Virus record (IMG/VR): IMGVR_UViG_3300035698_035310
Location: 295,045-359,044 of that record
DNA from: a virus
Strand: one strand, 5' to 3'
Length of the DNA stretch: 64,000 nt
Each line of letters starts with the position of its first letter. Positions within the stretch are counted from its first letter, which is position 1. Positions 11,502 to 64,000 of this stretch are shown one piece after another. The notes below the pieces were generated by a model, which made no database searches, was not told the origin of the DNA, and worked only from the letters and a program-made list of their open reading frames with translations. A program made the translations under genes and the position numbers.

Positions 11502-11511
11502 TATTTTTTTA

Positions 11512-11810: not shown

Positions 11811-11836
11811 AAGCCTTTCGTTAAAGCATAAATTAA

Positions 11837-11867: not shown

Positions 11868-11870
11868 GTC

Positions 11871-11899
11871 TTGACATATAACACTTATTACGTTAATAT
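11871..11899 (+). promoter_or_regulatory. Sigma70-like promoter
   Basis: TTGACA at 11871-11876, a 17-nt spacer and TAATAT at 11894-11899. It directly follows the terminator and drives the gene at 11936. Confidence 0.75.
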
Positions 11900-11935
11900 T
11901 AAACCCACAAATGATATTAATGAAAGGATGCTATT

Positions 11936-12409
11936 ATGGCTGAACAACCTGACGATCAACCAAAAAAGAAGAAAAAACAAAAAAAACAAAAGATGAGCAA
12001 AAGCAGTTCTAATACTGTTGCACAGGTATATTTCAATGAGTCTGAACCAGAGTATCCGTTGACATTGCCACTGGAGATGCTTGTCCGTGCAAAAGCCATC
12101 TTAGATATGCATAACATCATAATGAAGCCATGGGTCACGCTTATAAGCCTTGGTAAGCACGCTATTGAAGCATGGACAATTGGCGGCGACCCAATCGATA
12201 AAAAATATTGGTGGATGGATCAATATATCGAATCTGTATGCAACATGATATGGTGTGACATTAATAGTAAATACTATAAAGAATGGTGTGATACAGGCAT
12301 TCTATTGGATGTTCCATCATTGAATAAACGATCAAGAGGAAGTCCAGAAAGTGTTGCAGAACATTTTGCCGATGTCGCAGTTAAAGCGTTTATAGAGCCA
12401 TACAAATAA
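11936..12409 (+). CDS. Hypothetical protein with Lys-rich N-terminal tail
   Basis: 157 residues with SD aaagga. Residues 8-21 are almost pure lysine and glutamine, followed by a Ser-rich linker. The globular part (about 30-157) is helical with several Trp and Cys. The tail could contact nucleic acid or direct localisation. It is the first gene of a unit leading into the dehydrogenase at 12421, 11 nt downstream. Confidence 0.65.
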   Translation: MAEQPDDQPKKKKKQKKQKMSKSSSNTVAQVYFNESEPEYPLTLPLEMLVRAKAILDMHNIIMKPWVTLISLGKHAIEAWTIGGDPIDKKYWWMDQYIESVCNMIWCDINSKYYKEWCDTGILLDVPSLNKRSRGSPESVAEHFADVAVKAFIEPYK

Positions 12410-12420
12410 TAAGGTAATAC

Positions 12421-25219: not shown

Positions 25220-25220
25220 T

Positions 25221-26171: not shown

Positions 26172-26845
26172 GCATACACAGAGTAGGGCTATCAGTAATG
26201 CGTGCACAACCATTTCACAAAGGGCATGAAGCAATCATTAACACGATGATATCTGAATGCGAAACTGTGGTTGTGTGTTTAGGTAGTGCGCAAAAATCAA
26301 GAGAAAAACATGATCCATGGACAATTGAAGAACGCATCGATATGATTCAACGTGTATATGGTGCATATAACAATAAAGGTGAATTTCTTGGTAGTAGAGT
26401 TAAAATCATTCCGTTGACTGATATTGGGGCTGCTACTCCACAAAAGTGGGTTAGTTATATTGTTGAAAAGATTGAGAAACTCGGTCTTCCTGAACCGACT
26501 GATTATTTTACTGGTTCAGAGTTTGACGCTGCATGGTTTAGAGATCATTTTGCCGCCGATTGGCGTGCATTAGAAGGACATTATTATAATCAATCTAAAG
26601 AGAAAGTAAATGGACAACCATCTGTTGAAGGCAATTCATATGAACGATATGTGGGTGAAAATGGAATATTTAGACGTTTACATAACATCCAACGACAAGA
26701 AAACAGAATTCCATCTGCTACGGAATTGCGTGGATTTATGGAATTGCGGTTGAATGATTGGAAAGAATGGATTGCAACTGTAAATCATGAAACACTTGAT
26801 GAAACATATCCAGACGAATTTAAAGTTCCAATGGATAACGAATAG
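26168..26845 (+). CDS. nadM: NMN/NaMN adenylyltransferase (NadM-like)
   Basis: Transfers AMP from ATP to (nicotinate) mononucleotide. The nucleotidyltransferase motif HKGH is at residues 17-20, preceded by MRAQPF. The second ATP motif NRIPSATELR is near residue 180. SREKHDPWTIEERIDMIQRV is typical of NadM and NadR cores. The 225 residues are longer than archaeal NadM because of a C-terminal tail. It overlaps the end of the radical SAM gene (ATGA) and completes the path between PncB and NadE. Confidence 0.9.
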   Translation: MSIHRVGLSVMRAQPFHKGHEAIINTMISECETVVVCLGSAQKSREKHDPWTIEERIDMIQRVYGAYNNKGEFLGSRVKIIPLTDIGAATPQKWVSYIVEKIEKLGLPEPTDYFTGSEFDAAWFRDHFAADWRALEGHYYNQSKEKVNGQPSVEGNSYERYVGENGIFRRLHNIQRQENRIPSATELRGFMELRLNDWKEWIATVNHETLDETYPDEFKVPMDNE

Positions 26846-49022: not shown

Positions 49023-49886
49023 ATGAAAAAATATTTAGAAGCATTACAAGACATAATGGATAACGGCGTAGACCGAAATGACCGCACAGGCGTTGGCACA
49101 CGTTCAGTATTTACACAACAGTTACGATTTAACCTAAATGATGGATTTCCCGCTGTAACAACCAAAAAACTGGCTTGGAAGGGCGTTGTGTCAGAATTGC
49201 TATGGATGATAGAAGGTTCTGGTGATGAACGTAGATTAGCGGAGATACGTTATGGTAAAGACCGTTCAGAACTTGATGGTAAAACTACTATTTGGACTGC
49301 GAATGCACAAGCAGATTATTGGAAAGATAAAGCAAAGTATGATGGTGATTTGGGCAGAGTGTACGGAGTGCAATGGAGAAATTGGAAATCGCCACAATTT
49401 GATTCAGTTGAAACGACAGACCAGCTAGCTGATGTCATTCAACGTATAAAAGATAAGCCATGGGATAGACGACATGTTATAACAGCATGGAATCCTGGTG
49501 AAACCGACCAAATGGCATTACCGCCATGTCATATGATATTTCAATTTTATGTAGCAGATGGTAAACTTTCATGCCATATGTTCCAGAGAAGTTGTGACAT
49601 GCTGCTCGGAATCCCATTTAATATCGCATCCTATGCCCTTTTAACACATTTAGTGGCACAAGTATGTGATCTCGGCGTGGGTGAAGTTGTGTTAACATTA
49701 GGCGATGCGCATATTTATAATAATCATTTCGACCAAGTCAAAGAACAACTTAGTAGAACACCAGGACATTTACCTTCGTTGGTGTTGAACGAAACAATTA
49801 AAAACATCGACGATTTTACAATGGAAGATATACATTTAGAAAATTACAATCCACAAGAAGCAATAAAAGCACCTATGGCTGTTTAG
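49023..49886 (+). CDS. thyA: Thymidylate synthase
   Basis: Makes dTMP from dUMP. The catalytic Cys169 lies in PPCHMIFQFYV. DRTGVGTRS at the N-terminus, LGRVYGVQWRNW, QRSCDMLLGIPFNIASY and LGDAHIYNNHF are all classic. The start at 49023 lies behind agagaag; the earlier in-frame codon at 48996 is unlikely. 287 residues, no intron. An antisense GIY-YIG gene overlaps its last 14 nt. In T4, td carries the intron-encoded GIY-YIG enzyme I-TevI, so this locus is a familiar target. Confidence 0.97.
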   Translation: MKKYLEALQDIMDNGVDRNDRTGVGTRSVFTQQLRFNLNDGFPAVTTKKLAWKGVVSELLWMIEGSGDERRLAEIRYGKDRSELDGKTTIWTANAQADYWKDKAKYDGDLGRVYGVQWRNWKSPQFDSVETTDQLADVIQRIKDKPWDRRHVITAWNPGETDQMALPPCHMIFQFYVADGKLSCHMFQRSCDMLLGIPFNIASYALLTHLVAQVCDLGVGEVVLTLGDAHIYNNHFDQVKEQLSRTPGHLPSLVLNETIKNIDDFTMEDIHLENYNPQEAIKAPMAV

Positions 49887-50757
49887 GTTCAAACCAAAAA
49901 CCAAGGTCGCGATATGATTTACCTATATTATCACGACCTTGGTTTTCTTTCAAATAGCGAGATTTACTCGTTGCTTGTTTTACTATAATATTATCACAAT
50001 TCAAACACCACCTATGAATAGTAGCAGATAACATATATTCATGTGCTTGTTGTGCTTGGCTTGATGAAGGAAAAACACCCCAAGGTGTATAATAATATCC
50101 CATAAATCTATAAGAATTTTCACCAGTTACTTTTTCAATAGATTCTTTTGATTTGATAACACCAGTGCTTAATGCTCGCAATTTATGCAATGTTTTTTTT
50201 GTATGTTTCTTGCCATAAAATGGATTATTTTTACCTGTTCTATCGCGACATTCGCCACATACATTACTACAAGTCTGTATGCTGTTTTTATTGCAAGATG
50301 GGCATATTTTATAACTAATACCACCATCACGCCAGTTGGGATTATTTTTCCCATATCTCGCCCATCGTTCTTGTTTTTCTTCATCAGACATTGCATCCAA
50401 TATTTTTTGTTGCGCAACAACTCTGCGTTTAATAATATTTTCTCTATCAGGATGATTAGTTAGATTATCACCACCACCGGCTGCTCCAATATTATATCCA
50501 CCAATATTTTCATCTATATATTTTTGTTCGATTTCAAATAACATTTCTTCATCACATTCTTCAATATATTCAAATATGAATACATTAGAACCATTTTTAT
50601 TCCATGACCGCTGTAAATATATATTATGATGATTATTATTTTTCAAACGATTTTTATGACTAACCCAACGCTTATAAATATTGACAGATGACCCATAATA
50701 AGCTTTACCATTGACGTTATTTCTGATACGATAAATACCACAGTTAAAAGATTTCAT
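49873..50757 (-). CDS. GIY-YIG homing endonuclease next to thyA
   Basis: 294 residues. GIYRIRNNVNGKAYYGSS at residues 7-24 is the GIY-YIG core, with RWVSHKNRLK after it. CPSC...C..C near 155-175 suggests a zinc finger, and GKNNPFYGKKHTKKTLHKL is a NUMOD3 DNA-binding motif. The gene overlaps the 3' end of thyA by 14 nt on the opposite strand. A 13-bp perfect hairpin lies inside its last codons. It probably spreads between thyA loci. Confidence 0.92.
   Translation of the reverse strand: MKSFNCGIYRIRNNVNGKAYYGSSVNIYKRWVSHKNRLKNNNHHNIYLQRSWNKNGSNVFIFEYIEECDEEMLFEIEQKYIDENIGGYNIGAAGGGDNLTNHPDRENIIKRRVVAQQKILDAMSDEEKQERWARYGKNNPNWRDGGISYKICPSCNKNSIQTCSNVCGECRDRTGKNNPFYGKKHTKKTLHKLRALSTGVIKSKESIEKVTGENSYRFMGYYYTPWGVFPSSSQAQQAHEYMLSATIHRWCLNCDNIIVKQATSKSRYLKENQGRDNIGKSYRDLGFWFEPKQP
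49897..49950. terminator. Terminator between thyA and antisense endonuclease
   Basis: AAAACCAAGGTCG (49897-49909) pairs perfectly with CGACCTTGGTTTT (49934-49946), then CTTT. It could end transcription from both sides and lies in the endonuclease coding region. Confidence 0.65.
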
Positions 50758-50909: not shown

Positions 50910-51623
50910 ATGACAAATACTACAAAGTTATTAATGATACATGTATTAGCGCACATAATGCTAATACCAATGTTTTTATATGGCGAAATGTGGATGTTTA
51001 TTGCGGCGTTTTTTTGGTGGCAGTTTATAGCAGCATCCTCTATTACTTCTGGATATCATAGATATTTTTCACATAAAAATTTTAAAACTGGAAAATGGTA
51101 TGAGTGGTATAGTCAGTATTTGGGTATATTTTCTAATGCTGGACCTGTTCTTACATGGGCATCGGTTCATAGAATGCATCATGCCAATAGCGACAATGAA
51201 CTCGACCCACATAGCCCAAAACATAAAGGATTTTGGTATGCATTTTTTAATTTGTGGGGATATGATGTTCATATACCAAGAAAATATCTAAAAGGTTTGA
51301 TACAAAACAAAAGTGTCAGAGTTTTTCACAAATATTATTTTTTAATCGTCGCAGCAACTATTATGATGTTGGGTATAATTAATTTTAATTTGTTATTATT
51401 TGGTTTTTTCTTTCCTGTTATATGTGGATTTTGGGGTTTTGGTATGGTTAATGCGTACACACATAGAAAAGGTTATGCTACAAATAGTGCACTTGCTAAT
51501 ATATTAACTGCTGGTGAAGGATGGCATTTAAACCACCACAACGATGGTAGCAATTGGCGTATCGGAAAGAAATGGTGGGAAATAGATACAGGAGCATGGT
51601 TTATATGGGCAATAAAGTATTAA
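50910..51623 (+). CDS. Fatty acid / acyl-CoA desaturase
   Basis: Membrane di-iron desaturase, 237 residues with about four membrane spans. Histidine boxes are HRYFSH (near residue 50), HRMHH (near 88) and HLNHH (near 212), in the right order. GYHRYFSH and EGWHLNHHNDGSNWRIG are typical of delta-9 type enzymes. It could alter host membrane lipids or an acyl group of the island product. It overlaps the next gene by 19 nt. Confidence 0.93.
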   Translation: MTNTTKLLMIHVLAHIMLIPMFLYGEMWMFIAAFFWWQFIAASSITSGYHRYFSHKNFKTGKWYEWYSQYLGIFSNAGPVLTWASVHRMHHANSDNELDPHSPKHKGFWYAFFNLWGYDVHIPRKYLKGLIQNKSVRVFHKYYFLIVAATIMMLGIINFNLLLFGFFFPVICGFWGFGMVNAYTHRKGYATNSALANILTAGEGWHLNHHNDGSNWRIGKKWWEIDTGAWFIWAIKY

Positions 51624-53491
51624 TATCAGTCCCGCCGTTATTGCATAAGTCTGTATATTTGCCATACATATGGGGCAGACTTAAAACATATGCTGATTGT
51701 GATTATGAAAATGATTTATCCGATATAGATTGGCTCGATCCATTATTTTTACACGAAACACCGGACCAATTACCAGAATGCGACATTCTTGGTTTAAGTT
51801 GTTATGTATGGAACTGGGATAAAAATTTAGAAATAGCAAAAACAATTAAAGAAAATAATCCAAATTGTTTTATAATCGCCAGTGGTCCACATGTTCCATA
51901 TAAAAATTCAAATTTCTTTGAAGAATTTCCTCAAATAGATGCAATATGCTACAGCGAAGGCGAACGAGTATTTTCAGAATTTTTATATAATTACACAAAC
52001 GATATAGATTACGACATAGATGGTTTGTTATTAAAAACTAATCCTACCAAATCATTACCTAATGTTCCAAAATTGTCATTAGATGATTTAACTTCGCCAT
52101 GGATTCATTGCGATGAATCATTCAGAAGATTTGATGCAGAATTAAGAATATTGGATAAGCGCGTCAATATCATCATTGAAACAAATCGTGGGTGTCCATA
52201 CAAGTGTGCGTTTTGTGATTGGGGATCAGCCACAAATTCTAAAATTAAAAAATTCAACAAACGCAACATATTCGACGAAATTGATTTATTATGCAAATAT
52301 GACCCAGAAATAGTGTTTATAGCAGATGCAAATTTTGGTATATTGGAAGTTGATTTAGAATATATAAAACGATTTGTTGAAAATAAAACCCGTTTCGATA
52401 TGAGACGCATGCAAGTCAATGTATGTATCGCAAAAAACAAAAAAGATATAGCCAATGAATGTTTGAAATTACTGTATGAAAATGAAATGCTGGTTAATGC
52501 ACAAATTTCATTTCAACACACAGACGACGAAGTATTGGATATAATGGATAGAAGTAACATAAAAGTGTTAAGTTCAATCGAAGAAGTCAAAGAAAATTAT
52601 AAAAATGGCATACCGAGTGCAGGAGTATTGATATTAGGAAATCCTGGTGATACTATGGTTAAACTGAAAAAAGCATTCAATGATTTATTGTGTTTAGGAT
52701 TTCATGATGAAATCAGATTGCACGATTTTATGTTACTGCCAAATGCACCTGCTAGCGATCCGGCATATATTGAAAAATGGAAAATTGGATATATTGAAAA
52801 AATGTATCAAGAAACGCCAGACAGAACGCCGTTTAAAACTAAATTTTTATGCGAATCTTTTAGTTACACAAAAAAAGATTACATAGAAATGCAATTATAT
52901 AGTTCATTTATTCAAAGCATGCATAATTTATCGATATTCAAATTCGTTGCAATGTTCGCGCATCATTCACACAACGTCGATTATAATACATTTTATGATC
53001 AAGTAATTAAAATACCTGCAATACGAAAAATATTGGATGTAGTCGAAGATGACTTGAATGAATATATGTATGGCGATAAACAGACTAAATTTATAACATA
53101 TAACAACAGATCATTTTCGTATGAAAATTATATTTTCTTGAAAGCATTGGAAAATATTGATGAAATATATGACAGTTTCGAGTTATATGGTTCCGATATT
53201 ATAAAATTTCAAAAAGAAATATTAGTTAACGGATTACCAAAAAATGATTTCGAATTGGATTTCGATTATAAAGAATATTTCACCAAAATATATAATCTTC
53301 CAGTAAATGAACGTGGAAATTTTTTTCCTATAAAAAGGAAAACAAAATATAAATTCAAACATTATAATGTAGGACCATATGAAAATATAAACACAAAAGG
53401 GTTCACCATAAAAGATGTGATTAACAAAATTTTAAATAAAACACCAAATTATAGACACAAAATAACATATTATGAGAATATTATAAAATGA
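51605..53491 (+). CDS. B12-binding radical SAM protein
   Basis: 628 residues. The N-terminal 150 residues form a B12-binding-like Rossmann domain (CDILGLSCYVWNWDKNL, IASGPHVP). The radical SAM motif CPYKCAFC follows near residue 193, then ISFQHTDDEVLDIMDR. The C-terminal 250 residues are a large unknown domain. The start at 51605 is supported by caggag and lies inside the desaturase gene. Related enzymes perform difficult methylations or rearrangements. Substrate unknown. Confidence 0.88.
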   Translation: MGNKVLISVPPLLHKSVYLPYIWGRLKTYADCDYENDLSDIDWLDPLFLHETPDQLPECDILGLSCYVWNWDKNLEIAKTIKENNPNCFIIASGPHVPYKNSNFFEEFPQIDAICYSEGERVFSEFLYNYTNDIDYDIDGLLLKTNPTKSLPNVPKLSLDDLTSPWIHCDESFRRFDAELRILDKRVNIIIETNRGCPYKCAFCDWGSATNSKIKKFNKRNIFDEIDLLCKYDPEIVFIADANFGILEVDLEYIKRFVENKTRFDMRRMQVNVCIAKNKKDIANECLKLLYENEMLVNAQISFQHTDDEVLDIMDRSNIKVLSSIEEVKENYKNGIPSAGVLILGNPGDTMVKLKKAFNDLLCLGFHDEIRLHDFMLLPNAPASDPAYIEKWKIGYIEKMYQETPDRTPFKTKFLCESFSYTKKDYIEMQLYSSFIQSMHNLSIFKFVAMFAHHSHNVDYNTFYDQVIKIPAIRKILDVVEDDLNEYMYGDKQTKFITYNNRSFSYENYIFLKALENIDEIYDSFELYGSDIIKFQKEILVNGLPKNDFELDFDYKEYFTKIYNLPVNERGNFFPIKRKTKYKFKHYNVGPYENINTKGFTIKDVINKILNKTPNYRHKITYYENIIK

Positions 53492-54126
53492 CATACCCAA
53501 CAAACATCGATATTGTAAATCTAAATGAATTCGGTGTTGATAAGTTTAAAAATATATTATTACAATTATCAACCGAATGCGCCGACAAAAATAGAGATTG
53601 GTTTGATCCAGATAATAATTGGAGTTTGATACATCAATTCGCTAAATATGATTGGTGTTTTGCATTACACGACGATCAATTAGTGGCGTTTTCTGCTATA
53701 CAAAAATATAATTTCGGTGTAAGAGTTTTAACCAGAACATTTTACATGCCGGTTTTTAGAAAATCCAGCTTGAAAGTTAATATGAAATACACAATGGATG
53801 AAATCACTCCAGCGATGAAAATGTTACAATATCAACTTAATTCATTAAAAAATAGCGATGTTTCTTTAGCATTTATCAGCATGGAATATCCAGAAAGACG
53901 GACGGCACTTGAGACATTTCGTGATAAGTTAAATCATCATTATGATAACAATTGGACTATTCCTGAAAATATGTATTTAACATGTCCCGATCCTGAAAGT
54001 TTTTCGTGTTGGCAGAACATATGCTATACCGAATTAAAACCAAATTCATTTTTTAATGATTGGGGTAACATAACAGTAGACGAATGGAGGAATAGATATG
54101 GAAACGCACGAAAGACACTTGACTGA
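53488..54126 (+). CDS. Hypothetical protein, possibly GNAT-like
   Basis: 212 residues, ATGA overlap with the radical SAM gene. KYDWCFALHDDQLVAFSAIQKY near 50-72 and the strand that follows recall acetyltransferase folds, but the acetyl-CoA pyrophosphate-binding loop is not clear. C-terminal part unknown. Part of the island operon. Confidence 0.6.
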   Translation: MTYPTNIDIVNLNEFGVDKFKNILLQLSTECADKNRDWFDPDNNWSLIHQFAKYDWCFALHDDQLVAFSAIQKYNFGVRVLTRTFYMPVFRKSSLKVNMKYTMDEITPAMKMLQYQLNSLKNSDVSLAFISMEYPERRTALETFRDKLNHHYDNNWTIPENMYLTCPDPESFSCWQNICYTELKPNSFFNDWGNITVDEWRNRYGNARKTLD

Positions 54127-54754
54127 TTCTGATGTAATACGTGAACGCGTTAAAGGTGATAATGGGCCACGAAGACATGAAGTGGTCACATTTGAAAAAC
54201 TATCAGAAGTTCCCAGAGACGTGATCGATGAAATACATCAAGTATTGAGCAATTATCGAAAAAACGATTTGGTTTCAGATAGGCATCCAATAAGTGTTAA
54301 TTGCAAAATAGCACAAGAATTTAAAAAAGAAAACGGATATAAACAAATATTACTACAAGGACATTTAGGTGATGAAGGAATAGAAGAAAGCCAGTATACT
54401 GAATGGTTTGACATGGGAACTGATAATATACAAAAATATTTAACTGCTACATTTGGAAAGGTGTTTAGAGCAAGAATAAGTGTGTGTCCTGCCGGTGAAG
54501 AACTAAATTGGCATATAGATACAGATACGTCTAAAATGTGTCGAATACAAATATGTGTGCAAGACAAAGAATCTTATTTTGAGTTCAAAGTGCGTGGCGT
54601 GGAATCATCCAATCGCATGGAAGAGAACAACTTGTACTTCATAAATACTGGATGGACACATCGTGTAAGAAATGTATCTGATATAGATCGAATTGTTCTA
54701 TTAGCAGGCGTGTATTTTGATGACGTTCCAAATAATGAAAAATTGAGAGTTTAG
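54098..54754 (+). CDS. Putative Fe(II)/2-oxoglutarate-type dioxygenase A
   Basis: 218 residues, with SD ggagg inside the preceding gene. LNWHIDTDTSKMCR near residue 130 supplies H-x-D. GWTHRVRNVSDIDRIVLLAGVYFD near 185 supplies the distal His and an Arg. This is the metal- and 2OG-binding pattern of aspartyl-hydroxylase-like cupins. The N-terminal part is helical. Substrate unknown. One of four such proteins in 4 kb. Confidence 0.7.
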   Translation: METHERHLTDSDVIRERVKGDNGPRRHEVVTFEKLSEVPRDVIDEIHQVLSNYRKNDLVSDRHPISVNCKIAQEFKKENGYKQILLQGHLGDEGIEESQYTEWFDMGTDNIQKYLTATFGKVFRARISVCPAGEELNWHIDTDTSKMCRIQICVQDKESYFEFKVRGVESSNRMEENNLYFINTGWTHRVRNVSDIDRIVLLAGVYFDDVPNNEKLRV

Positions 54755-54755
54755 T

Positions 54756-55454
54756 ATGCACGACTTTATGCCAATAGACGTTGCCTTAAATTACGAAAAA
54801 CATCACATGGTCGATTTTTTTAATAAACGATGTGTGCGCGGCTCTATATGGTGGGATATGGTTATAGTTCGATCAGTAGAAAAAATGAGTGATACCGAAT
54901 CGGTTAAAGTAAAATGGAATGAATCATATAAGTGGATTTGGGATGAAGAATTTGAAAACAAATTTCCATCATTGATAGATGATTTATATAATAAATTACC
55001 TTTTAGATTTATAAGCAGTGTGCTATTGCTTAGAAATTTCGACGTTGTTCATCCACATTGTGATATTTCCATCAATGAAAAAGAAAATGACAATATTCGT
55101 TTGGCTAAAAACGACCTTGGTAGCATGGAATCAAGCATGTATAGAATTGTAATAGATGGTTCTATAAATAATTCATTTTTTTTAAGTGATAAATTGGTAG
55201 GTGATGATACGGGACGCAAATGGGTTGGCATGGATGATATAACCCCCGGTGTCGATTATAACGTCAAATTTGTTAGTATGCCACCAGACACCAATATATT
55301 CGCCCTAACGGCGTTTAATGCTACACACGGATCAGTAATTCCAGATTCACCAAAAATAATTATGGCAGTGCATGGATTTTTAGATGAAGCACGACATTCA
55401 TCCCTATTAACACAAAGTTATGACAAATATAAATCATATGGAATAACTTATTAA
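54756..55454 (+). CDS. Putative Fe(II)/2-oxoglutarate-type dioxygenase B
   Basis: 232 residues, 1 nt after the preceding stop. VHPHCDISINEKE near residue 96 (H-x-D) and FNATHGSVIPDSPKIIMAVHGF near 190-210 (distal His) suggest the double-stranded beta-helix of non-haem iron oxygenases. Identity to the neighbouring dioxygenase-like proteins is low, so this is pattern-based. Coupled to the next gene by TAATG. Confidence 0.6.
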   Translation: MHDFMPIDVALNYEKHHMVDFFNKRCVRGSIWWDMVIVRSVEKMSDTESVKVKWNESYKWIWDEEFENKFPSLIDDLYNKLPFRFISSVLLLRNFDVVHPHCDISINEKENDNIRLAKNDLGSMESSMYRIVIDGSINNSFFLSDKLVGDDTGRKWVGMDDITPGVDYNVKFVSMPPDTNIFALTAFNATHGSVIPDSPKIIMAVHGFLDEARHSSLLTQSYDKYKSYGITY

Positions 55455-56290
55455 TGTATACACTTTTTAGCACACCAAGAACAGGAAGCATTTTAGCATC
55501 TGGATTGTTATGGTTATATTTACGGAACAAATACAAATATAATTCATATATAATAGAAATGTTTAATCAAAATCATTATAATGTGTGGCACGATGATAAT
55601 ATTAAAGATGGGATATTATTAAGTAGGCATAATCATTCAATCAAAGTGAAAAATTCATATAAATTAAAATTTAAATTATCACATGGTACAATAATTCAAT
55701 ACAAAGATTATGACGATATTCGATATTTAGACGAATCTGAAATAATTGAAGAAGATTTATACCGTCTCGATATACTTAAGCAAGCCAGCAAAAATAATGA
55801 TTATTTTCTTAATAATCATGCGACGCCGTTGGGTGAAAATGTTTTTAAATATTTAACCACATTAGATGTTATATGTATAGAGCGCAAAGATAAATTTGAA
55901 CAAATTATGAGTAATTGTATAGCGCATCACACCAAACAATATTGGTGTAAAGATAACTCGTCTATTATAATACACGAAAAAGATAGCATTCAAGTTGACG
56001 AGAAATTCTTTAAAAATACATTAAAGAGATATGAAACTTACACACATCGAAAAAAAATGTTAATCGACCCTATAACGATATATTATGAAGATATAAATGA
56101 TATGAAATCATATTTAGAGTTTGGTGAATTAGTTGGATTTAAAGACTATGATAAATATGTAACCATCGACGAAATTGATGATATTGTGGGTGTTAAACAA
56201 AATCCCGATGATAAATTGAAGTATTTTAAAAATAAAAATCAAATGATAAGTTGGTTCGAGGAGTGGAATGAGCACATTACTGTTACCTGA
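55454..56290 (+). CDS. Sulfotransferase-like protein
   Basis: 278 residues. FSTPRTGSILASGLL at residues 4-18 matches the PAPS P-loop of sulfotransferases (PRTGSS type). A later block DVICIERKDKFEQIMSNCIAHH fits the phosphate-binding strand and helix. It starts at the last base of the previous gene. It could sulfate the island product, but only motif evidence exists. Confidence 0.65.
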   Translation: MYTLFSTPRTGSILASGLLWLYLRNKYKYNSYIIEMFNQNHYNVWHDDNIKDGILLSRHNHSIKVKNSYKLKFKLSHGTIIQYKDYDDIRYLDESEIIEEDLYRLDILKQASKNNDYFLNNHATPLGENVFKYLTTLDVICIERKDKFEQIMSNCIAHHTKQYWCKDNSSIIIHEKDSIQVDEKFFKNTLKRYETYTHRKKMLIDPITIYYEDINDMKSYLEFGELVGFKDYDKYVTIDEIDDIVGVKQNPDDKLKYFKNKNQMISWFEEWNEHITVT

Positions 56291-56810
56291 AATTAAATAC
56301 AATAAACGCGAACTGAAAGAATTTGTAATGCATTGTGTTAAAAATAATAAACCAATAACAAATGTAGATGATTCTTATATCGTATATGACTCAGATTTTA
56401 ATGCTACAGCATATACTGCCATTAGAAATCAAATTTCATTAAAAGGTCATATCAATTTTAAAATTGTTTATCTCAAAAAAGGTATTAATTTTTTACCTCA
56501 TATCGACAACACATCAAACGGATTGACGTGTAAAATAATATTTCCTATAACTGGTGATTTTGAAGTTTCACCAATAGATATATATAATCCCACTAAAAAA
56601 AATAAATCAGGGAAAGCGATCTCTGAAACCGATGCTGGTGAGAAAATAGGAAGTATAGTATATCGTTGTCCTATTTTATTAGACACAACCATTGTTCATG
56701 GTGTTGATAATAGTTCTGGTGGCGATAGAATAGTATTGAGTATGTGTTTTCATAATACAAGTTTTAATGATTTAGCAAAAATGCATTATTCAAACAATTT
56801 GATTGTTTAA
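56268..56810 (+). CDS. Putative Fe(II)/2-oxoglutarate-type dioxygenase C
   Basis: 180 residues, starting with SD gaggag inside the sulfotransferase-like gene. INFLPHIDN near residue 78 gives H-x-D, and TTIVHGVDNSSGGDRIVLSMCF near 144-165 gives the distal His and Arg. The length suits a minimal double-stranded beta-helix. It ends head-on against the minus-strand PP-loop gene, overlapping it by 4 nt. Confidence 0.68.
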   Translation: MSTLLLPEIKYNKRELKEFVMHCVKNNKPITNVDDSYIVYDSDFNATAYTAIRNQISLKGHINFKIVYLKKGINFLPHIDNTSNGLTCKIIFPITGDFEVSPIDIYNPTKKNKSGKAISETDAGEKIGSIVYRCPILLDTTIVHGVDNSSGGDRIVLSMCFHNTSFNDLAKMHYSNNLIV

Positions 56811-57481
56811 TATTCACCAAACGCCCAATATTTCTCTCTACACCACCAACATTTTTTACACGTTTCTGTAAAATTATTTGTTACATCAGAATGACCTTCA
56901 CATGATCTCGTTATTGGAAATAGATCATACATGAGATCATATTCATCATATAAATATGCTATAAATTTTTTATCTACATTTCTAAATGGAAAATATATAG
57001 GAGTTATATCATTCCATATATACCAATTGTTATGCTTATGTTCACCGACATCGCGTATAAGTTCTCTACCTTTTTTTAATTCTTCTGGTATATCTACTGG
57101 ATTTGCACTTAATCCAGTGATAACCATATCTATCATATCACTATCTAATAATTTCTTTTCAAAATTTCTAAGATACTCTAATTTTTGTGTTTCATGAAAA
57201 TATGAAATATGATGTGATATAATATTATTAGGTATCAATTTTTTTATTTTATCAACAACGTCAACTGAACGAAAATATGTCCATCTTCCCTTAAGATCAT
57301 TTACGCATGTAAGAATAACCAATTCAATATCTCGATTGTTTTCAACTATATATTTGGTCAAAATATATAATAAAATCGAACTATCTGCACCACCACTCAA
57401 ATTTACTGCTATTTTTTTATATTTTTCAGGTATGTTGAAATTTATTTCTTGATTGTCGTGTTTTAATATTAATTCTTTCAT
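56807..57481 (-). CDS. QueC-like PP-loop ATP pyrophosphatase
   Basis: 224 residues. The PP-loop LSGGADSS lies at 28-35, and a later core TGLSANPVDIPEE follows. The C-terminal SCEGHSD...TCKKCWWCREKYWAFGEY gives the Cys cluster and R...AF ending seen in QueC. QueC makes the 7-cyano-7-deazaguanine base precursor. The protein is only distantly similar, and related PP-loop enzymes adenylate other carboxylates. No QueD, QueE or FolE is adjacent. The role could be amide or nitrile formation in the island product, which is inference. Confidence 0.75.
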   Translation of the reverse strand: MKELILKHDNQEINFNIPEKYKKIAVNLSGGADSSILLYILTKYIVENNRDIELVILTCVNDLKGRWTYFRSVDVVDKIKKLIPNNIISHHISYFHETQKLEYLRNFEKKLLDSDMIDMVITGLSANPVDIPEELKKGRELIRDVGEHKHNNWYIWNDITPIYFPFRNVDKKFIAYLYDEYDLMYDLFPITRSCEGHSDVTNNFTETCKKCWWCREKYWAFGEY

Positions 57482-58027
57482 TTACAATATAGTTCCAACT
57501 ATATGTACGCGCTCGACGTCTACGCTACCATTAAATACCGTATGTGGTAATGTTGTATCAACTATAAAAGAATTTCCATCGGAGGGGAGGTGAAATGCAC
57601 GATCTTCTACAACCATTTTACAGTTTTCATCTGTAATAATGGGAAGATGTATTCGTTTATGTGAATCAGCGTGCCACGATAAACATTTTTTTCTATTTAA
57701 TTTCATCAATCTAACCCTTCCCAATGTCAATCCATAGTCATTTATCCAGCAATTGTATATATTATAAAAATATGAATTATGTAAATTTATATTAAATTCA
57801 CTATAGTCGCTTTCTTTATATACGACAGTTTTGGATATTTTTATACCATTTTCAAAATCACCTTCGTAGAATAACGACCCAGTTCCTTCATAATATGGAT
57901 TTGTACATCCTATTTTATTTGTTAAACATATTTGATTGCGAGTATGGAATGGTGCATTCAATAATAAATTGTTTAATGATTTGTTAATTTCAACCATATC
58001 AAAATTTGTTGGTAGTATATCATACAT
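57482..58027 (-). CDS. Aspartyl/asparaginyl hydroxylase-like dioxygenase D
   Basis: 181 residues. CLSWHADSHKRIHLPIITDE near 115-134 contains H-x-D and the Arg/His stretch typical of aspartyl/asparaginyl beta-hydroxylases. DTTLPHTVFNGSVDVERVHIVG gives the distal His and Arg. This is the most convincing of the four dioxygenase-like proteins. It is adjacent to the PP-loop gene with no gap, so the two form a minus-strand operon. Confidence 0.78.
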   Translation of the reverse strand: MYDILPTNFDMVEINKSLNNLLLNAPFHTRNQICLTNKIGCTNPYYEGTGSLFYEGDFENGIKISKTVVYKESDYSEFNINLHNSYFYNIYNCWINDYGLTLGRVRLMKLNRKKCLSWHADSHKRIHLPIITDENCKMVVEDRAFHLPSDGNSFIVDTTLPHTVFNGSVDVERVHIVGTIL

Positions 58028-58056
58028 TTATAGTTGTCCTATACATATAAAAAGAG

Positions 58057-58084
58057 TTGACATTATTACTATTCGTGATATTAT
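58057..58084 (+). promoter_or_regulatory. Sigma70-like promoter for the lyase lipoprotein
   Basis: TTGACA at 58057-58062, a 16-nt spacer and TATTAT at 58079-58084. Confidence 0.7.
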
Positions 58085-58128
58085 ATCACAATACAACAAT
58101 ATTTATCAATATTTAAAAGGATTTTAAC

Positions 58129-58902
58129 ATGATTTATAATCGTTTTTTCGCGTCTGTGATCACCATGTTTATGCTTTCTGGGTGCGTCACAAATTCTGGC
58201 GGATTTGGTTCATTCTCAAAAGGGGATTTGAATAAAAAATCATATGGTCATACCGAAGTTCCTGATCCAACAGGGTTTGCTCCAACAAAAATGGTTCATC
58301 GTTTCGAAGTGCGGGATGGTGATTGCGGTGTAAGCAGTAAAGGAAGCAGTGATTGTAATCGTGGGAGTGAACGGGCTGAAATGAAGGAAAACAGTCCATC
58401 CCATTATGGCGAATCTTGGTATGGATGGTCTATTTATTTCCCGAAGGATTATGTAAGTTTGATACATTCTGGTGTCACGGTGGCGCAATTCAAACCATAC
58501 AGCAGAAAGCCATTGCTAACATTTGGTGATCATTTTGAGACGCTTGTAGTAAACAGATATGAAGGCGTTCCTAATGCGGTAAGACAACAAAAATCACTTG
58601 AGCGCTACGAACTTATTGCCACTGAAGATTTAAGGGGAAAATGGCACAAAATCGAAATGAATATTAAATGGTCATCCGATGATGATGGTTTTTATAAAAT
58701 TTGGGTCAATGGGAAACTCAAAGTCGACTACAAAGGTGTCACAAAAGCAGGAAGACCATATCTTAAATATGGAATTTATCGAAACAATTTGCATAAATAT
58801 AAATTTCATGCCGGTGTAAAAATTATACCAACGCAAATTTTGATGTATTCAAATGTCAAAAAAAGTGACACACGGGAAGGTCTGTTGCCTACGGTAGAAT
58901 AA
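58129..58902 (+). CDS. Polysaccharide lyase-like lipoprotein
   Basis: 257 residues. The signal peptide ends in the lipobox LSGC, so Cys19 is the probable lipidation site. The mature part matches heparin-lyase/glucuronan-lyase-like jelly rolls: GSERAEMKENSP, SWYGWSIYFPKDY, GKWHKIEMNIKWSSDDDGFYKIWVNGK and LKYGIYR in order. It would act in the periplasm or at the cell surface on acidic polysaccharide. A phage-encoded lipoprotein made in the host suggests altering capsule for exit or exclusion. Own promoter; convergent with the next gene. Confidence 0.88.
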   Translation: MIYNRFFASVITMFMLSGCVTNSGGFGSFSKGDLNKKSYGHTEVPDPTGFAPTKMVHRFEVRDGDCGVSSKGSSDCNRGSERAEMKENSPSHYGESWYGWSIYFPKDYVSLIHSGVTVAQFKPYSRKPLLTFGDHFETLVVNRYEGVPNAVRQQKSLERYELIATEDLRGKWHKIEMNIKWSSDDDGFYKIWVNGKLKVDYKGVTKAGRPYLKYGIYRNNLHKYKFHAGVKIIPTQILMYSNVKKSDTREGLLPTVE

Positions 58903-58908
58903 TCTTTT

Positions 58909-59877
58909 TTAGTTTGTATAATCCATTAATTTTTTCTGACCATTTGGCAATTTATGATATAATGGCTGTATCTCTAATTGAAAATGTGGAAAATTATCAT
59001 TAATAGATTTTGATATTATAGCAATTTCATCCGTTTTTTCTGGAAGATGCGCAACTTTAATTACAATATATTTAGCATCAGGCGATCTATGCTTGGACAT
59101 ATATTCTAATTTTTTATACAATGCATCCCATTTGGTAAATTCAAAATGCACACTTAATCGGAGTCCACATATCTCACTCAATTCAGTCAAATATTCTTTG
59201 TTTTTTGTACCATTGGTATTAACATGCATCATTAAATGTTGCTCCTCACCAATGAATTTATCATGCATTGTTTTAACATATTTTAAAAAATCAGGATTTA
59301 TTGTCGGCTCTCCTCCAGTATAAACAATATCTATATTCATATTTTCTGGTATTTGTGAAAAAAGATTATTTGTGCCATCTATTAATTGATCATATTTAAA
59401 ATGTGGGCTAAAGTTATCGTGAACGGTATCTGGGCAATACGAACAATCAAAATTACATCTTTTTCCAATATTCCAATTGATTCGAAAATTATTATCATCA
59501 CTCAATTCATCAACTGACGAGACCGCCACAACATCGTTTATATTAAAATTATCAGTGATATCAGTATTCAATAATGGCATATATTTAACATCTTTGACTT
59601 TTTCTAAAACAATATCGTCGGTGCAATGACAAACATCAAAATCACATGTTATCCATTCAGTTCTTAATTTAAAATTTGTATATATATTTCCAATTGATCC
59701 GCCTTGTTTGCATACCGATCCAAACACTGAACCCTTAGAATTGATGCTAATAGTTCTTCTGCCAGCACTACACGACCAACCTTTCCATTTATTATAACCG
59801 TTATTTTTAATATCATCCAATGATAAAAATTCTGATTTTCCATTACTGTCTATGAATTTTACTCGTTTATGTGCCAT
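58909..59877 (-). CDS. Radical SAM protein with N-terminal SPASM-like Cys region
   Basis: 322 residues. The radical SAM cluster CNFDCSYC is near residue 140, followed by IVYTGGEPTINPDFL. Unusually, the first 90 residues resemble a SPASM domain (GWSCSAG..TISINSKGSVFGSVCKQG, then SIGNIYTN, then WITCDFDVCHC), which normally lies at the C-terminus. Such proteins often modify peptides or sugars. It overlaps the next minus-strand gene at its start and shares the operon. Confidence 0.85.
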   Translation of the reverse strand: MAHKRVKFIDSNGKSEFLSLDDIKNNGYNKWKGWSCSAGRRTISINSKGSVFGSVCKQGGSIGNIYTNFKLRTEWITCDFDVCHCTDDIVLEKVKDVKYMPLLNTDITDNFNINDVVAVSSVDELSDDNNFRINWNIGKRCNFDCSYCPDTVHDNFSPHFKYDQLIDGTNNLFSQIPENMNIDIVYTGGEPTINPDFLKYVKTMHDKFIGEEQHLMMHVNTNGTKNKEYLTELSEICGLRLSVHFEFTKWDALYKKLEYMSKHRSPDAKYIVIKVAHLPEKTDEIAIISKSINDNFPHFQLEIQPLYHKLPNGQKKLMDYTN

Positions 59878-60731
59878 TATATAATTCCTATTAATTTTTT
59901 ATTTTCAGATATAGCGGTTATTATATCGATCATATTTGAGGTATCAAACATTATTGCAACATATACCTGTCCCAATCTACATTTTGGATCGGTTGTGTCA
60001 TATCCCAAATTACTATACCATTCATGTATTAATTGTACCCTGTTCGCGTGCCATTCGTTATTATAAGGTCCAAAATCCGCAACAAATGATGCTGAATATG
60101 TTTCTAACGGTCTTGGTGTTGTTACAACATCTTGTCTTCTATAACACTCTATATAATCTTTGCCGACTTGTGAATAATTTAATTTGATCCCGCCAGCTAT
60201 ATAAAGCGGCGTAAACATATCATTATAATCATCTATTATATTTTTCTTTTCAAATTGAAATGGTTCATCACCATGCTTTAAAAATCTAACTCTTATTCTA
60301 CTATCTGATTGTTTTCGTGTTTGTGTTATAATGGCATTTTCTAATTCATGTATGAAAATATTTAAATCGTTCATTGCTTGAACTAAATCATGATCTATTC
60401 GATAATTCTTATCTACTACTATATTTTCATATATAAAATGCAAATTGTTTAAACAATTCTGTGTAAATATATCATCTATATATTCAAACAATACATTATC
60501 AAATGTTTTAGGTTTTTTACTTTTTATTATATCTATCGCTACAAGTAAATTTTGTTGAATATTTATAATTTTGGCAGGATTATAAAATCCAGAATAAGTA
60601 TCTTCGATGAAATAATCATTATTGTATATTCGATTTTCAAGTAAATTAAACCAACTATAAGCAAGTTCATTATCATATAGTAAATATTTTACCTCTGTTC
60701 CATTTTCAAAAATTAAACTAAATTTTTTCAT
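59877..60731 (-). CDS. Hypothetical protein between two radical SAM genes
   Basis: 284 residues, not recognised. The first 60 residues form a compact strand-helix unit (FENGTEVKYLLYDNELAYSWFNLL), and the C-terminal part is Tyr- and Asn-rich. Single-base overlaps on both sides tie its expression to the two radical SAM genes. It may be their substrate, partner or a subunit. Confidence 0.7.
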   Translation of the reverse strand: MKKFSLIFENGTEVKYLLYDNELAYSWFNLLENRIYNNDYFIEDTYSGFYNPAKIINIQQNLLVAIDIIKSKKPKTFDNVLFEYIDDIFTQNCLNNLHFIYENIVVDKNYRIDHDLVQAMNDLNIFIHELENAIITQTRKQSDSRIRVRFLKHGDEPFQFEKKNIIDDYNDMFTPLYIAGGIKLNYSQVGKDYIECYRRQDVVTTPRPLETYSASFVADFGPYNNEWHANRVQLIHEWYSNLGYDTTDPKCRLGQVYVAIMFDTSNMIDIITAISENKKLIGII

Positions 60732-61810
60732 ATCTTAACACCGCATTGAAATGTGCATTTTTTAATAGTGTTGTGTGGAGTTTTCCACGATTCTTCCAAT
60801 AATTCACATAATTTTATATAATGAGAATACACGTGGTCAAAATCATATTTGGTTGAATCTAAATTGTCTATTCCTATCACGTTATAAATTTCAGTAAAAT
60901 CAACAGGTAATGGTTTATTATCATAAATAAATTCCGAAAGTGTAGCCCCATGCCAACAGCATGGTACTATATGACCCGTTGAATTATAAAACATTTTATC
61001 TATTTTCGTTTTTGATATATTATCATATGATTTACAAATTATATCAATATTGTTTTCTTTTTCATAAGTTTCAAGTTGTTTTAAAATAGTATCGGTACTT
61101 GTCGAGGTTTTATCATCGTGCACATTTATCAAAAATGTTTCTCTTATCGTTCCTTTATTATCATACTTATATTTATAATCACCGTCGGCTATTTCTAACG
61201 TGTATTCTTCATTTTTCCATTCATACGTAAGTGTGGGTGATCGACTAAATCTATCACTATTAAATGATTTAAAATCAAAAAATCCTAATTTTTCAGCCAT
61301 CAATTTTGCTTCTTCGAGTTGATGTTGATTGTGTTTAAATATTATAAATTGCCATCTTGCTTTACCGCCAGAACTTATAAATGCTTCTGCATTTTTTACT
61401 ATTTTATCAAAATTGCAATTTCTTCTATACATTTCTAATGTTTCTTGTGTAGAACCATCTAATCCAAATGTACAAACACAACCCAATGAACCCAATCTCT
61501 CCCACCACGATGTAGATCGTAAACTACCATTTGTTGCTATTCTTATTTTAAGTTTGTCATTTAAAGAACGCATGTATTCTACAATTTCTAAAAAATCACT
61601 TGATGCAACAGGATCGCTAACATTTCCACAAAACAAAACACTTTTCAAATTTTTTAAAAATTCTACAGGATAAAACTCTTTAAATGCTGAAATAGACTGG
61701 TCGGTTGACGACCATTTTGATGTATCGGTTCTTGCTCTAAAACACTGAGGGCAATATGCATTACATTTATTAGATAATTCAAAATGAATTTCTTTTACTG
61801 AATATTCCAT
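60728..61810 (-). CDS. Radical SAM protein with C-terminal SPASM-like domain
   Basis: 360 residues. The radical SAM motif CNAYCPQC is at 15-22. IATNGS and FGLDGSTQETLEMYRR follow in normal positions. The C-terminal IVPCCWHG and KCTFQCG supply auxiliary-cluster cysteines. Related enzymes modify ribosomal peptides, nucleotides or sugars. Part of the minus-strand operon 64000-58909. Confidence 0.87.
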   Translation of the reverse strand: MEYSVKEIHFELSNKCNAYCPQCFRARTDTSKWSSTDQSISAFKEFYPVEFLKNLKSVLFCGNVSDPVASSDFLEIVEYMRSLNDKLKIRIATNGSLRSTSWWERLGSLGCVCTFGLDGSTQETLEMYRRNCNFDKIVKNAEAFISSGGKARWQFIIFKHNQHQLEEAKLMAEKLGFFDFKSFNSDRFSRSPTLTYEWKNEEYTLEIADGDYKYKYDNKGTIRETFLINVHDDKTSTSTDTILKQLETYEKENNIDIICKSYDNISKTKIDKMFYNSTGHIVPCCWHGATLSEFIYDNKPLPVDFTEIYNVIGIDNLDSTKYDFDHVYSHYIKLCELLEESWKTPHNTIKKCTFQCGVKI

Positions 61811-62500
61811 TTATTTTCTTCCTATTAACATAAATCTATCATATTTTTCAAGATTTAAATGCCCTTCATATAATATATCATCCATTGGCGACTGCTGCTT
61901 AAATGAATACAAGCTATCGACACAATTAATATGCCCTTTACCATCGTAAAAATTATTCGATTGTAATATCAACAACGCGCCATCGGGTATTTTTTCAAAC
62001 CATTTATCATAATTGTCAATATGCTCACAACTGGTGTTTATAACACAATCTGGAATATCATATAAATTACAATCACTACCGTCAGCGCGAATTGTGCTGT
62101 AATCCATGCCATTATAATCTATGTCATGCATATCCATAGTGGAAGCCTTAAACGTCCATTCATCCATTACCCATTTTCTATTAATGGTGTCTGCTATGTT
62201 AGCACACTGCGTATCTATATCAAAAGAGCGTATTTTATTTATTTTCAATTTATTGGATTCAAACATCATGGCGGCTAATGATCCATACCAACCACCCACT
62301 ATATATACAACACCAAGGTCTAAATCTAAACTAATCAATTCATCAATTAGCCACAATTTGCTTTTTATTTGTCCTTGCGTAAATACATCATTAAAGTCTA
62401 TATCTGGAAAGTTAATTAATGCTCGGCGCAAATGTGCTATAAGATCACTTTCGTATATTGTTTGTAATCCATTTAATATTATATCGATATCATTATACAT
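61811..62500 (-). CDS. SAM-dependent methyltransferase-like protein
   Basis: 229 residues. VVYIVGGWYGSLAAMMFES near 63-81 resembles the SAM-binding glycine loop, and KIRSFDIDTQCANIADTIN gives the acidic residue at the end of strand 2. DCVINTSCEHIDNYDKWFEKIPDGALLILQSN matches strand 4-5. Class I fold is likely. Overlaps the next gene by 8 nt. Confidence 0.72.
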   Translation of the reverse strand: MYNDIDIILNGLQTIYESDLIAHLRRALINFPDIDFNDVFTQGQIKSKLWLIDELISLDLDLGVVYIVGGWYGSLAAMMFESNKLKINKIRSFDIDTQCANIADTINRKWVMDEWTFKASTMDMHDIDYNGMDYSTIRADGSDCNLYDIPDCVINTSCEHIDNYDKWFEKIPDGALLILQSNNFYDGKGHINCVDSLYSFKQQSPMDDILYEGHLNLEKYDRFMLIGRK

Positions 62501-63398
62501 CTTTCCACAGTCCTAAATCTTTAAGATATTGTTCATCTGCCAAGTGTGGCAGCATTAAACCCAATCTAGATGGATTATTCTGTATCTGTCTTGCAAACAG
62601 GCTTCCATTGTTATCTAATGTGATAACTGGCATATCCAGTTTATCCCTAAGATATGAACCATATATAGAAAACTCCGCGATGGTAAACTTATGCCACGTC
62701 GATTTCCACATTTTATCAAACCATTCATAATCAGAAATATGCGTGATATCTAAATCATTAACACATGTTTCATAACAACCGACTCTTGCGCCCATCATTG
62801 TCCAGAATCCATTGTCTATATCAATGCCTATATTCATCCACGACAGCAACCGATTGTAATTTCCTATCCACACATCAGTTCTAGGGTTTTCAACCACCAC
62901 ACCATCGTTTAAGCCCATCCTAACACCCTCTCTGAACCCCGTTCTGAATGCTTGTAGCGGCGTGGTGTTAATATGCGTGGTTGAACTAACTGCATTCATT
63001 TGAAAATAAGGAACAGTCCAACAAAAATCAGTTCCGTTGTTTTTTTCATGACTTTTAATATTTAACATTGTATGCTTGGGCCACAATTTTGCACCACCAT
63101 TACCATACTGCAATCCGTTAACTGAATTTATAGCAGACCAACTATGAACATAATTTGGATTTATATCATCCAACTCTTGACCAAAAAATTCATCATCTAC
63201 TTTGGTGTCACCGTCTATTACGAAAAAATGTTCCGAGTATGCAATTTTCGCTGCTTCTTTGTGTGCTTTATCGATACCTTTTACACCATGCACACGTTTT
63301 GCGTGTTTTACTAATGTTAATAAGTGCTCATAATTTTCATCAGCATTTGGTTCATCATATGATATGAATATCACATCAAATTCATAAGCGTTTGTCAT
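62493..63398 (-). CDS. Glycosyltransferase-like protein (GT-A)
   Basis: 301 residues. FDVIFISYDEPNADENYEHLL at the start and HFFVIDGDTKVDDEFF near residue 58-73 match the nucleotide-sugar site and DxD-type motif of GT-A enzymes. The C-terminal half (INTTPLQAFRTGFREGVRM, MMGARVGCYE) recurs in the next gene, so the two are paralogues. Likely acts on a glycan or glycopeptide of the island. Confidence 0.7.
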   Translation of the reverse strand: MTNAYEFDVIFISYDEPNADENYEHLLTLVKHAKRVHGVKGIDKAHKEAAKIAYSEHFFVIDGDTKVDDEFFGQELDDINPNYVHSWSAINSVNGLQYGNGGAKLWPKHTMLNIKSHEKNNGTDFCWTVPYFQMNAVSSTTHINTTPLQAFRTGFREGVRMGLNDGVVVENPRTDVWIGNYNRLLSWMNIGIDIDNGFWTMMGARVGCYETCVNDLDITHISDYEWFDKMWKSTWHKFTIAEFSIYGSYLRDKLDMPVITLDNNGSLFARQIQNNPSRLGLMLPHLADEQYLKDLGLWKDV

Positions 63399-64000
63399 AT
63401 TTTATACATTACCTTTTTTATAAATTCACTTTGTTCTGCGGTAAACAGTGCCGTTTCGATATCAAACATATCAAGCATTTCTTCACCACATGATTGTATA
63501 TTGCTCATAATATCATTGTGGTTAAGTTGTAAATCATAATATTCGCGACACACGCTAAAATCATTTATTATATTTAATTCTTCAACTTCTCGTTCAATCA
63601 ACTTATTTGAGTTACACGAACCGTGCATTACGCCCATTCTAGCACCCGCTATAGCATAATCACCAAAATCAACATCCATGCCAACACTTGTCCATATTTT
63701 AAGACGCGCTAATGTTTCTTCATTTTTTTGATTATCAATGACTGCACTAGATAATTTGGTACATTCTCTAAATCCACTTTTCCATGCATTAAACGGAGTT
63801 GTATTGAAATGGGTAGTGCTGGCTATTTCTTTATGTGATTTAAACCCACTAGATGCAGCCGCAGCACTCGTGCAAAAATCAACAGAATATTCTTTTATGT
63901 GCTCTACGTGATCAGTTGGAAATAATTTAACACCACCATATCCGTATTGCAATCCATTTACTGGATTATTGCAGCCCCATACATGAACGCGTCTATCATT
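63395..64000 (-). CDS. Paralogous glycosyltransferase-like protein, 5' end outside window
   Basis: About 202 codons are visible and the frame runs off the right edge. VHVWGCNNPVNGLQYGYGGVKLFP, FNTTPFNAWKSGFREC and IAGARMGVMHG align with the same blocks of the preceding protein. The ttg at 63952 is within the open frame and is not a real start. The DxD part would lie beyond the window. A duplication with divergence is likely. Confidence 0.75.
   Translation of the reverse strand, partial: NDRRVHVWGCNNPVNGLQYGYGGVKLFPTDHVEHIKEYSVDFCTSAAAASSGFKSHKEIASTTHFNTTPFNAWKSGFRECTKLSSAVIDNQKNEETLARLKIWTSVGMDVDFGDYAIAGARMGVMHGSCNSNKLIEREVEELNIINDFSVCREYYDLQLNHNDIMSNIQSCGEEMLDMFDIETALFTAEQSEFIKKVMYKI

Follow-up and report, generated by a model that had tools for sequence, protein, structure and literature searches.

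The 64-kb stretch of DNA analyzed here (the window) is the final part of a 359,044-bp IMG/VR virus record (IMGVR_UViG_3300035698_035310) and carries, from position 50910 to the cut end of the contig, an island of 16 genes rich in radical S-adenosylmethionine (rSAM) enzymes and oxygenase-like proteins. The record derives from an aquatic jumbo phage of the T4 superfamily whose DNA polymerase is nearest to those of Sinorhizobium phage Phosso, Agrobacterium phage Atu_ph07 and the RaK2/Serratia BF-type jumbo phages; the last 3 kb of the record is not repeated within its first 40 kb. The island comprises three near gapless same-strand runs, one on the plus strand (50910-56810) and two on the minus strand (56807-58027 and 58909-64000, the latter reaching the contig end), plus one solitary lyase gene. 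Same-strand neighbors within the runs either overlap, by 1-49 nt, or are separated by 0-1 nt, in line with the overlapping or abutting genes noted in an earlier reading of the sequence alone (the original prediction). That reading had proposed one or two biosynthetic operons: the operon-like organization was borne out, but the number was not, as there are three runs and a lone lyase gene and the cluster continues off the contig. The GC content of the island is 28-35% compared to ~35-39% across most of the window. The data support an accessory, AT-richer block of operon-like runs. A GIY-YIG homing endonuclease gene (49873-50757) lies at the border. The T4-type late promoter TATAAATA was not enriched in the window (17 occurrences vs. 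14 expected), and a scan of the window for sigma-70 promoters performed no better than with shuffled sequence. The predicted gene content, namely a desaturase, three rSAM proteins, four proteins with an HxD..H motif, sulfotransferase-, PP-loop-, methyltransferase- and glycosyltransferase-like proteins and the protein designated F6 here, was recovered as open reading frames (ORFs) in place, with support that is uneven from gene to gene; the polysaccharide lyase (58129-58902) and GNAT-like protein (53488-54126) were absent from that list.

The plus-strand run begins with a membrane acyl desaturase-like protein with His boxes (50910-51623; NCBIfam DesA, 2.4e-11; PDB acyl-CoA desaturase, 1e-6), homologs of which are found in phage Mosig, in viral locus L221 and, as six copies, in L243 (loci and genomes are cited by their L and G numbers). 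The next gene (51554-53491) encodes the best-supported enzyme of the island, which by strong sequence evidence is a predicted B12-dependent rSAM C-methyltransferase of the TokK/CysS/KedN5-like group, whose reaction is methyl transfer to an sp3 carbon. B12-binding (Pfam, 4e-7) and Radical_SAM (3e-10) domains with a CxxxCxxC cluster are present, and the protein matched TokK in the PDB at 1e-76 over 453 residues with SCYVWN and CPYKCAFCDWGSAT aligned, followed by CysS. The best NCBIfam model was KedN5 (NF033712; 8.7e-53), but the score of 179.5 bits is below the curated cut-off of 700 bits and the protein is therefore regarded as a relative of KedN5 and not as KedN5 itself. The ORF is listed from TTG at 51554, although the true start probably is an ATG ~40-50 nt further in. 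A tentatively assigned GNAT acyltransferase-like protein follows (53488-54126; 4.8e-8 to L142 8813-9340, which itself matched PF00583 at 1e-3), and then an Fe(II)/2-oxoglutarate (2OG) oxygenase that is moderately well identified as the Asp_Arg_Hydrox (AAH) type (54098-54754; PF05118 at 1.9e-4, just under cut-off; Mosig_00072 at 1.2e-6). The GNAT-AAH gene pair of 53488-54754 recurs in Mosig and G006. The three remaining proteins bear only putative labels: an Fe(II)/2OG oxygenase (54756-55454; HCD motif at residue 101; 1.3e-3 to L243 2261-3118), a sulfotransferase (55454-56290; N-terminal STPRTGS; 0.0055 to L003:9474 of the same genome and 0.002 to L243 97), and a further Fe(II)/2OG oxygenase (56268-56810), for which an HID motif at 78 is the sole basis. 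Neither of these two oxygenase-like proteins gave a library match, but both possess the HxD..H motif. The L003 protein of this record (L003:9474-10331), a sulfotransferase (PF00685 Sulfotransfer_1, 2.8e-5), is encoded far from the island.

The short minus-strand run includes a possible PP-loop ATPase (56807-57481) with an SGGxDS motif, C-terminal cysteines at 194, 208, 211 and 214, and a match to phrog_1550 at 3e-6. As it scored 16.5 bits (0.006) against Pfam QueC, under the cut-off of 22, and no QueD homolog was found in the genome record, it is described only as QueC-like. The adjacent gene (57482-58027) encodes an AAH-type oxygenase whose identity is strongly supported at the sequence level (PF05118 at 3.7e-8, over cut-off; PDB 7v4f β-hydroxylase at 5e-15; Mosig_00118 at 1e-22). 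Residues H119, D121, R125 and H162 are invariant in a nine-member AAH alignment (A5) that includes both AAH-type proteins of the island; the profile matches solved amino-acid hydroxylases, and the alignment was too divergent for use as a scan query. The polysaccharide lyase at 58129-58902 (PF14099, 1.5e-30; PDB glucuronan lyase A, 1.4e-6) is the lone plus-strand gene between the two minus-strand runs, has its own transcript unit divergent from 57482-58027, and bears a lipoprotein-type signal (lipobox LSGC); it may be a membrane-anchored depolymerase.

The long minus-strand run, in order of position, contains an rSAM protein with an extra N-terminal Cys cluster (58909-59877; PF04055, 1.5e-9; CxxxCxxC at residue 141; 3.8e-21 to L136 15514), the F6 protein (59877-60731) and a second rSAM protein with SPASM-like C-terminal cysteines (60728-61810; PF04055, 1.1e-9; CxxxCxxC at residue 16) to which 13 marine viral loci are related. 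With intact CxxxCxxC motifs the two proteins are strongly predicted to be rSAM enzymes. The 58909-59877 protein matched the N-twitch rSAM model NF033640 (N_Twi_rSAM) only partially (4e-9; 36 bits vs. a cut-off of 170), whereas N-twitch relatives in L150 reach 282-401 bits. A putative class I SAM methyltransferase (61811-62500) is tentatively assigned from homologs in Mosig (Mosig_00090), L009, L011 and L243 at 1e-12 to 1e-17, the first of which carries a methyltransferase annotation. The run ends with two paralogs (62493-63398 and 63395-64000, the latter cut by the contig end) that are 36% identical over 133 aa. The paralogs had no library match; the former is 36-38% identical to the glycosyltransferase heading an rSAM operon in G001, G002 and G004, and an AlphaFold2 (AF2) model with a predicted local distance difference test (pLDDT) score of 70 gave weak top matches (E 2e-3 to 6e-2) to GT-A/nucleotidyltransferase folds. 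Both paralogs are candidate GT-A-like glycosyltransferases with moderate support.

The F6 protein founded a family with at least 170 relatives in IMG/VR viral contigs, the best 80 of which were taken as the F6 set. The relatives were recovered by alignment search, as single-protein scans of IMG/VR with the DNA polymerase, the B12 rSAM and F6 gave nothing usable. One long F6 member queried by tblastn against 50,697 phage records gave no match, although a fold match indicated a probable F6 relative in Atu_ph07. Among 84,980 cellular species genomes F6 was found only on three contigs of metagenome-assembled genomes, of which one or more have a phage-like appearance. F6 had no significant match in Pfam. 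Structure prediction, advocated by the original prediction, produced a confident model (pLDDT 85; predicted template modeling score 0.81) that had no significant match among PDB folds and that in BFVD matched solely uncharacterized phage proteins. Residues N95, H98, E102, N124, H128, E131, G190 and K191 are invariant in 61 members, and in the model both N/H/E triplets are on neighboring helices, which suggests a metal or catalytic site.

The F6 gene is closely associated with rSAM genes in other phages. An rSAM gene is situated on the same strand within three genes of F6 in 59 of 82 cases and is directly adjacent in 47. Moreover, rSAM genes account for 274 of 1319 genes around F6 compared to 8 of 578 around the DNA polymerase in jumbo relatives. 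The 80 F6 loci include rSAM genes in 69 instances (at least three in 52), and genes for a carbamoyltransferase (56), a glycosyltransferase (52), an SGNH hydrolase (46), a DegT sugar aminotransferase (30), an epimerase (18) and an amidinotransferase (13). The search favored long operon-type members, and the rSAM link is looser in short members of the window type, some of which have QueD-like or 2OG neighbors. In L175, L214, L151 and L201 some F6 genes follow a gene that by sequence motif resembles QueD/6-pyruvoyl-tetrahydropterin synthase and not rSAM genes; thus, the role of F6 may not be confined to a single pathway. The amidinotransferases of relatives match StrB1, AGAT and SxtG, but this likeness is at the family level and confined to relatives, and was not taken to identify an alkaloid or aminoglycoside cluster.

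Conserved order was most evident in G001, G002 and G004, whose DNA polymerases are 54-57% identical to that of the window phage and which share the arrangement tail-fiber-like genes, glycosyltransferase, four to six N-twitch rSAMs, F6, SGNH hydrolase and carbamoyltransferase; most of the rSAM, glycosyltransferase and carbamoyltransferase orthologs are 67-82% identical. In a second G001 locus F6 immediately precedes an rSAM gene like 58909-59877, as in the window. Locus L221 unites both halves of the island (glycosyltransferase, five rSAMs, F6, a 50910-like desaturase and carbamoyltransferase). The families of the plus-strand half also are grouped in other phages: Mosig holds desaturase, GNAT-AAH, rSAM and methyltransferase homologs together, G006 has overlapping GNAT, AAH and rSAM genes, G005/G008 have two AAHs inside a run of seven rSAMs, and L243 combines six desaturases with rSAM, methyltransferase and ketoacyl synthase genes and with 2OG proteins. 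Some loci were retrieved with an rSAM query and their rSAM content therefore is not independent evidence. However, every AAH match in jumbo relatives sits inside an rSAM cluster or beside an rSAM gene, and this association is free of that selection. Within the record, three of the four rSAMs of the whole genome detected by Pfam fall in the 13 kb of the island, which by our arithmetic is an ~1-2% event by chance alone; the recurrence of the same families together in other phages is stronger evidence against chance. Thus, comparison of gene neighborhoods in related phages upheld conserved co-occurrence and did not reveal the unrelated single insertions that the original prediction had named as its refutation.

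The reading that we favor, although it falls a little short of an even chance, is that the island encodes a modular set of tailoring enzymes that yields a heavily modified sugar conjugate destined for the phage or host surface. The analysis demonstrates the gene set, how closely it is packed, that it recurs with rSAM, glycosyltransferase, carbamoyltransferase and tail-fiber genes in related phages, and the family identities of the better-supported enzymes; the substrate, the order of steps, the acceptor and the role of F6 are inferred. In this scheme the island enzymes would assemble a small conjugate based on sugar and elaborate it through acyl desaturation or acylation, 2OG-dependent hydroxylation, C-methylation by the B12 rSAM, other rSAM C-H chemistry, O- or N-methylation and sulfation. 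F6 would serve the rSAM step, as either a dedicated partner or a metalloenzyme, and the GT-A-like enzymes then would link the product to a structure on a surface, whether to the tail fibers of the phage itself or to polysaccharide in the envelope of the infected cell, thereby altering recognition or blocking competing phages. The recurrent partners (glycosyltransferase, carbamoyltransferase, DegT, epimerase and amidinotransferase) and the small-molecule type of methylase favor sugar-based tailoring, and the tail-fiber setting in relatives favors a surface role; the latter follows and extends the suggestion of serotype conversion made for pelagimyophages (PMC7029224). Homologs of carbamoyltransferase and tail fibers also are encoded in the same genome, 3-10 kb upstream of the window. 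Several points weigh against this reading. The island itself yielded no gene of a nucleoside diphosphate-sugar pathway, the glycosyltransferase assignment derives from a model of pLDDT 70 with weak fold matches (E ~2e-3 at best), the desaturase together with the L243 ketoacyl synthase indicates lipid as much as sugar, and in Atu_ph07 and Phosso, both sister phages, the apparent target of an rSAM cluster is a protein tail. Furthermore, acceptor genes may be missing as the cluster is cut by the contig end. Among the products initially envisaged (a glycan, lipid or peptide) the choice is not narrowed to one, with a sugar conjugate preferred. A bolder extension, which we consider doubtful, is that aquatic jumbo phages possess a modular pathway of secondary-metabolism grade that makes a natural-product-like glycan for decorating the adhesins of the virion or remodeling the surface of the host. 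Its components would be a TokK-like methylase, arrays of rSAMs, oxygenases, transferases for carbamoyl, amidino, sulfo and glycosyl groups, and F6, a protein restricted to viruses that may have a new fold.

The main rival, unlikely in our estimation but made concrete by the sister phages, is tailoring of a protein or peptide akin to that of ribosomally synthesized and post-translationally modified peptides (RiPPs), in which the rSAM, oxygenase and F6 proteins would modify side chains of a phage protein such as a fiber or a short peptide. Two of the three island rSAMs score to SPASM/peptide-maturase models and the AAH profile matches amino-acid/peptide hydroxylases. In Atu_ph07, Phosso and the 250-kb contig L236, an rSAM cluster and a cupin/JmjC-like oxygenase flank a protein that has a (C-H-x-S)n tail ending in RSRR/RGRR (L134:13119-14009, Atu_ph07 AUZ94952; L135:12415-13335, Phosso; L236:7956-8660), and the Atu_ph07 cluster includes the probable F6 relative. 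The Atu_ph07 and Phosso proteins are 38% identical overall, yet their tails (CHSSCHASCHNSRSRR and CHTSCHASCHSSRSRR) are nearly identical; the repeats in L236 span ~70 residues. These proteins are candidate rSAM substrates in jumbo phages. However, the CHxS motif is absent throughout the record of the window, which rules it out as an rSAM substrate in this phage, and no precursor-like ORF of the RiPP kind was seen in the island. The B12 rSAM, being TokK-like, is of a type that acts on small molecules, and the recurrent partners (carbamoyltransferase, DegT, epimerase, amidinotransferase and glycosyltransferase) are enzymes of sugar or secondary metabolism.

Remodeling of host lipid or lipid A, whereby the desaturase, GNAT and AAH proteins would change acyl chains during infection, is distinctly less probable. 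The Pfam family of the AAH proteins includes LpxO, a desaturase heads the first gene run, and in L243 a stretch of 16 kb holds six desaturases and a ketoacyl synthase along with an rSAM, 2OG proteins and GNAT-like genes, but the AAH proteins are short, soluble and closer to amino-acid hydroxylases, and the glycosyltransferases, sulfotransferase and PP-loop protein would be left unexplained. Within this 73-kb viral contig, the six desaturase paralogs at 4614-13042 lie amid 2OG/GNAT-like genes and a β-ketoacyl synthase, together resembling a viral island of the lipid or polyketide-like kind. There is a slim chance that the genes are unrelated single insertions that gathered at a hypervariable site, perhaps through the neighboring homing endonuclease, and that lack a common pathway, as the mixed strands, the GIY-YIG gene at the border and the several families without relatives might imply; co-occurrence repeated with the same neighbors in unrelated phages (F6-rSAM, GNAT-AAH and AAH-rSAM) argues otherwise. 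Phage DNA hypermodification uses QueC-like, rSAM, methyltransferase and glycosyltransferase-type enzymes, but modification of DNA or RNA by the island is very improbable and was rejected as the main reading because no QueD homolog was found in the genome record. The upstream thymidylate synthase appears ordinary from its sequence, and the match of the island protein to QueC is under cut-off.

Elsewhere, the record encodes a class I lysyl-tRNA synthetase (1e-102), a full-length elongation factor G, and homologs of Asp-, Tyr- and short Glu-tRNA synthetases (window 33481-35160; L002:1618-3735; L147:3160-4974; L149:13288-14538; L004:13458-14309). A compact trio of NAD synthase-like, rSAM and cytidylyltransferase-like genes is located at 24167-26845 of the window.

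The rSAM-rich modules of T4-like phages have been on record since 2010 without a function and now are tied to a conserved jumbo-phage operon beside tail fibers, with F6, carbamoyltransferase, glycosyltransferase and SGNH proteins named as recurrent partners. If the product decorates a surface, the modules would add a layer of rich chemistry to the conflict of phages with their hosts and with one another; should it instead be a modified protein tail, they would provide RiPP-like modification of phage proteins. As far as the searched open-access literature reaches, the F6 family, the jumbo-phage operon, a TokK-like methylase in a phage and this mix of enzymes are new, as is the candidate substrate of rSAMs with a (CHxS)n tail that the sister phages encode. 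Nevertheless, the original assertion that no described phage pathway has this combination does not hold, as the Mosig island, an exchangeable module of five rSAMs and an amidinotransferase in Campylobacter phages CP220/CPt10 (PMC2853527), and pelagimyophage host-recognition clusters, which lie among tail fibers, are rich in glycosyltransferases and bear rSAM cassettes (PMC7029224), were described already.

The pelagimyophage clusters are placed between VrlC and gp14 with tail fibers; the window island is preceded by thymidylate synthase and homing endonuclease genes and then meets the contig end. The CP220/CPt10 module is comparable as an exchangeable cluster in which several rSAMs occur with an amidinotransferase and nucleotide-sugar-transferase-like proteins, but it is without AAH oxygenases, a desaturase or detectable F6. 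The 51554-53491 protein retains the cluster and SCYVWN motif in its 453-residue alignment with TokK (1e-76) but, unlike TokK, CysS and KedN5, is phage-encoded with no carbapenem, cystobactamid or enediyne genes nearby. The Mosig island adjoins tail-fiber genes and includes a desaturase, two AAH oxygenases, an N-acetyltransferase, three rSAM-type ('molybdenum cofactor') genes, methyltransferases and a carbamoyltransferase. Mosig EXVC030M and the window phage both belong to the T4 superfamily and have a desaturase, GNAT beside AAH, rSAMs, a methyltransferase and a carbamoyltransferase; five families are common by sequence (the desaturase, both AAHs, the rSAM at 60728 and the methyltransferase) and GNAT by position and annotation. 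In contrast, Mosig lacks detectable F6, the TokK-like B12 rSAM and F7-type glycosyltransferases, and the link with tail fibers is visible for the window island only in relatives because the contig ends. The operon in G001, G002, G004 and many further IMG/VR contigs differs in its tandem N-twitch array, as two divergent rSAMs flank F6 in the window and carbamoyltransferase is encoded elsewhere in the genome, but it includes homologous F6 and F7-type glycosyltransferase proteins and, by DNA polymerase, belongs to the same phage lineage.

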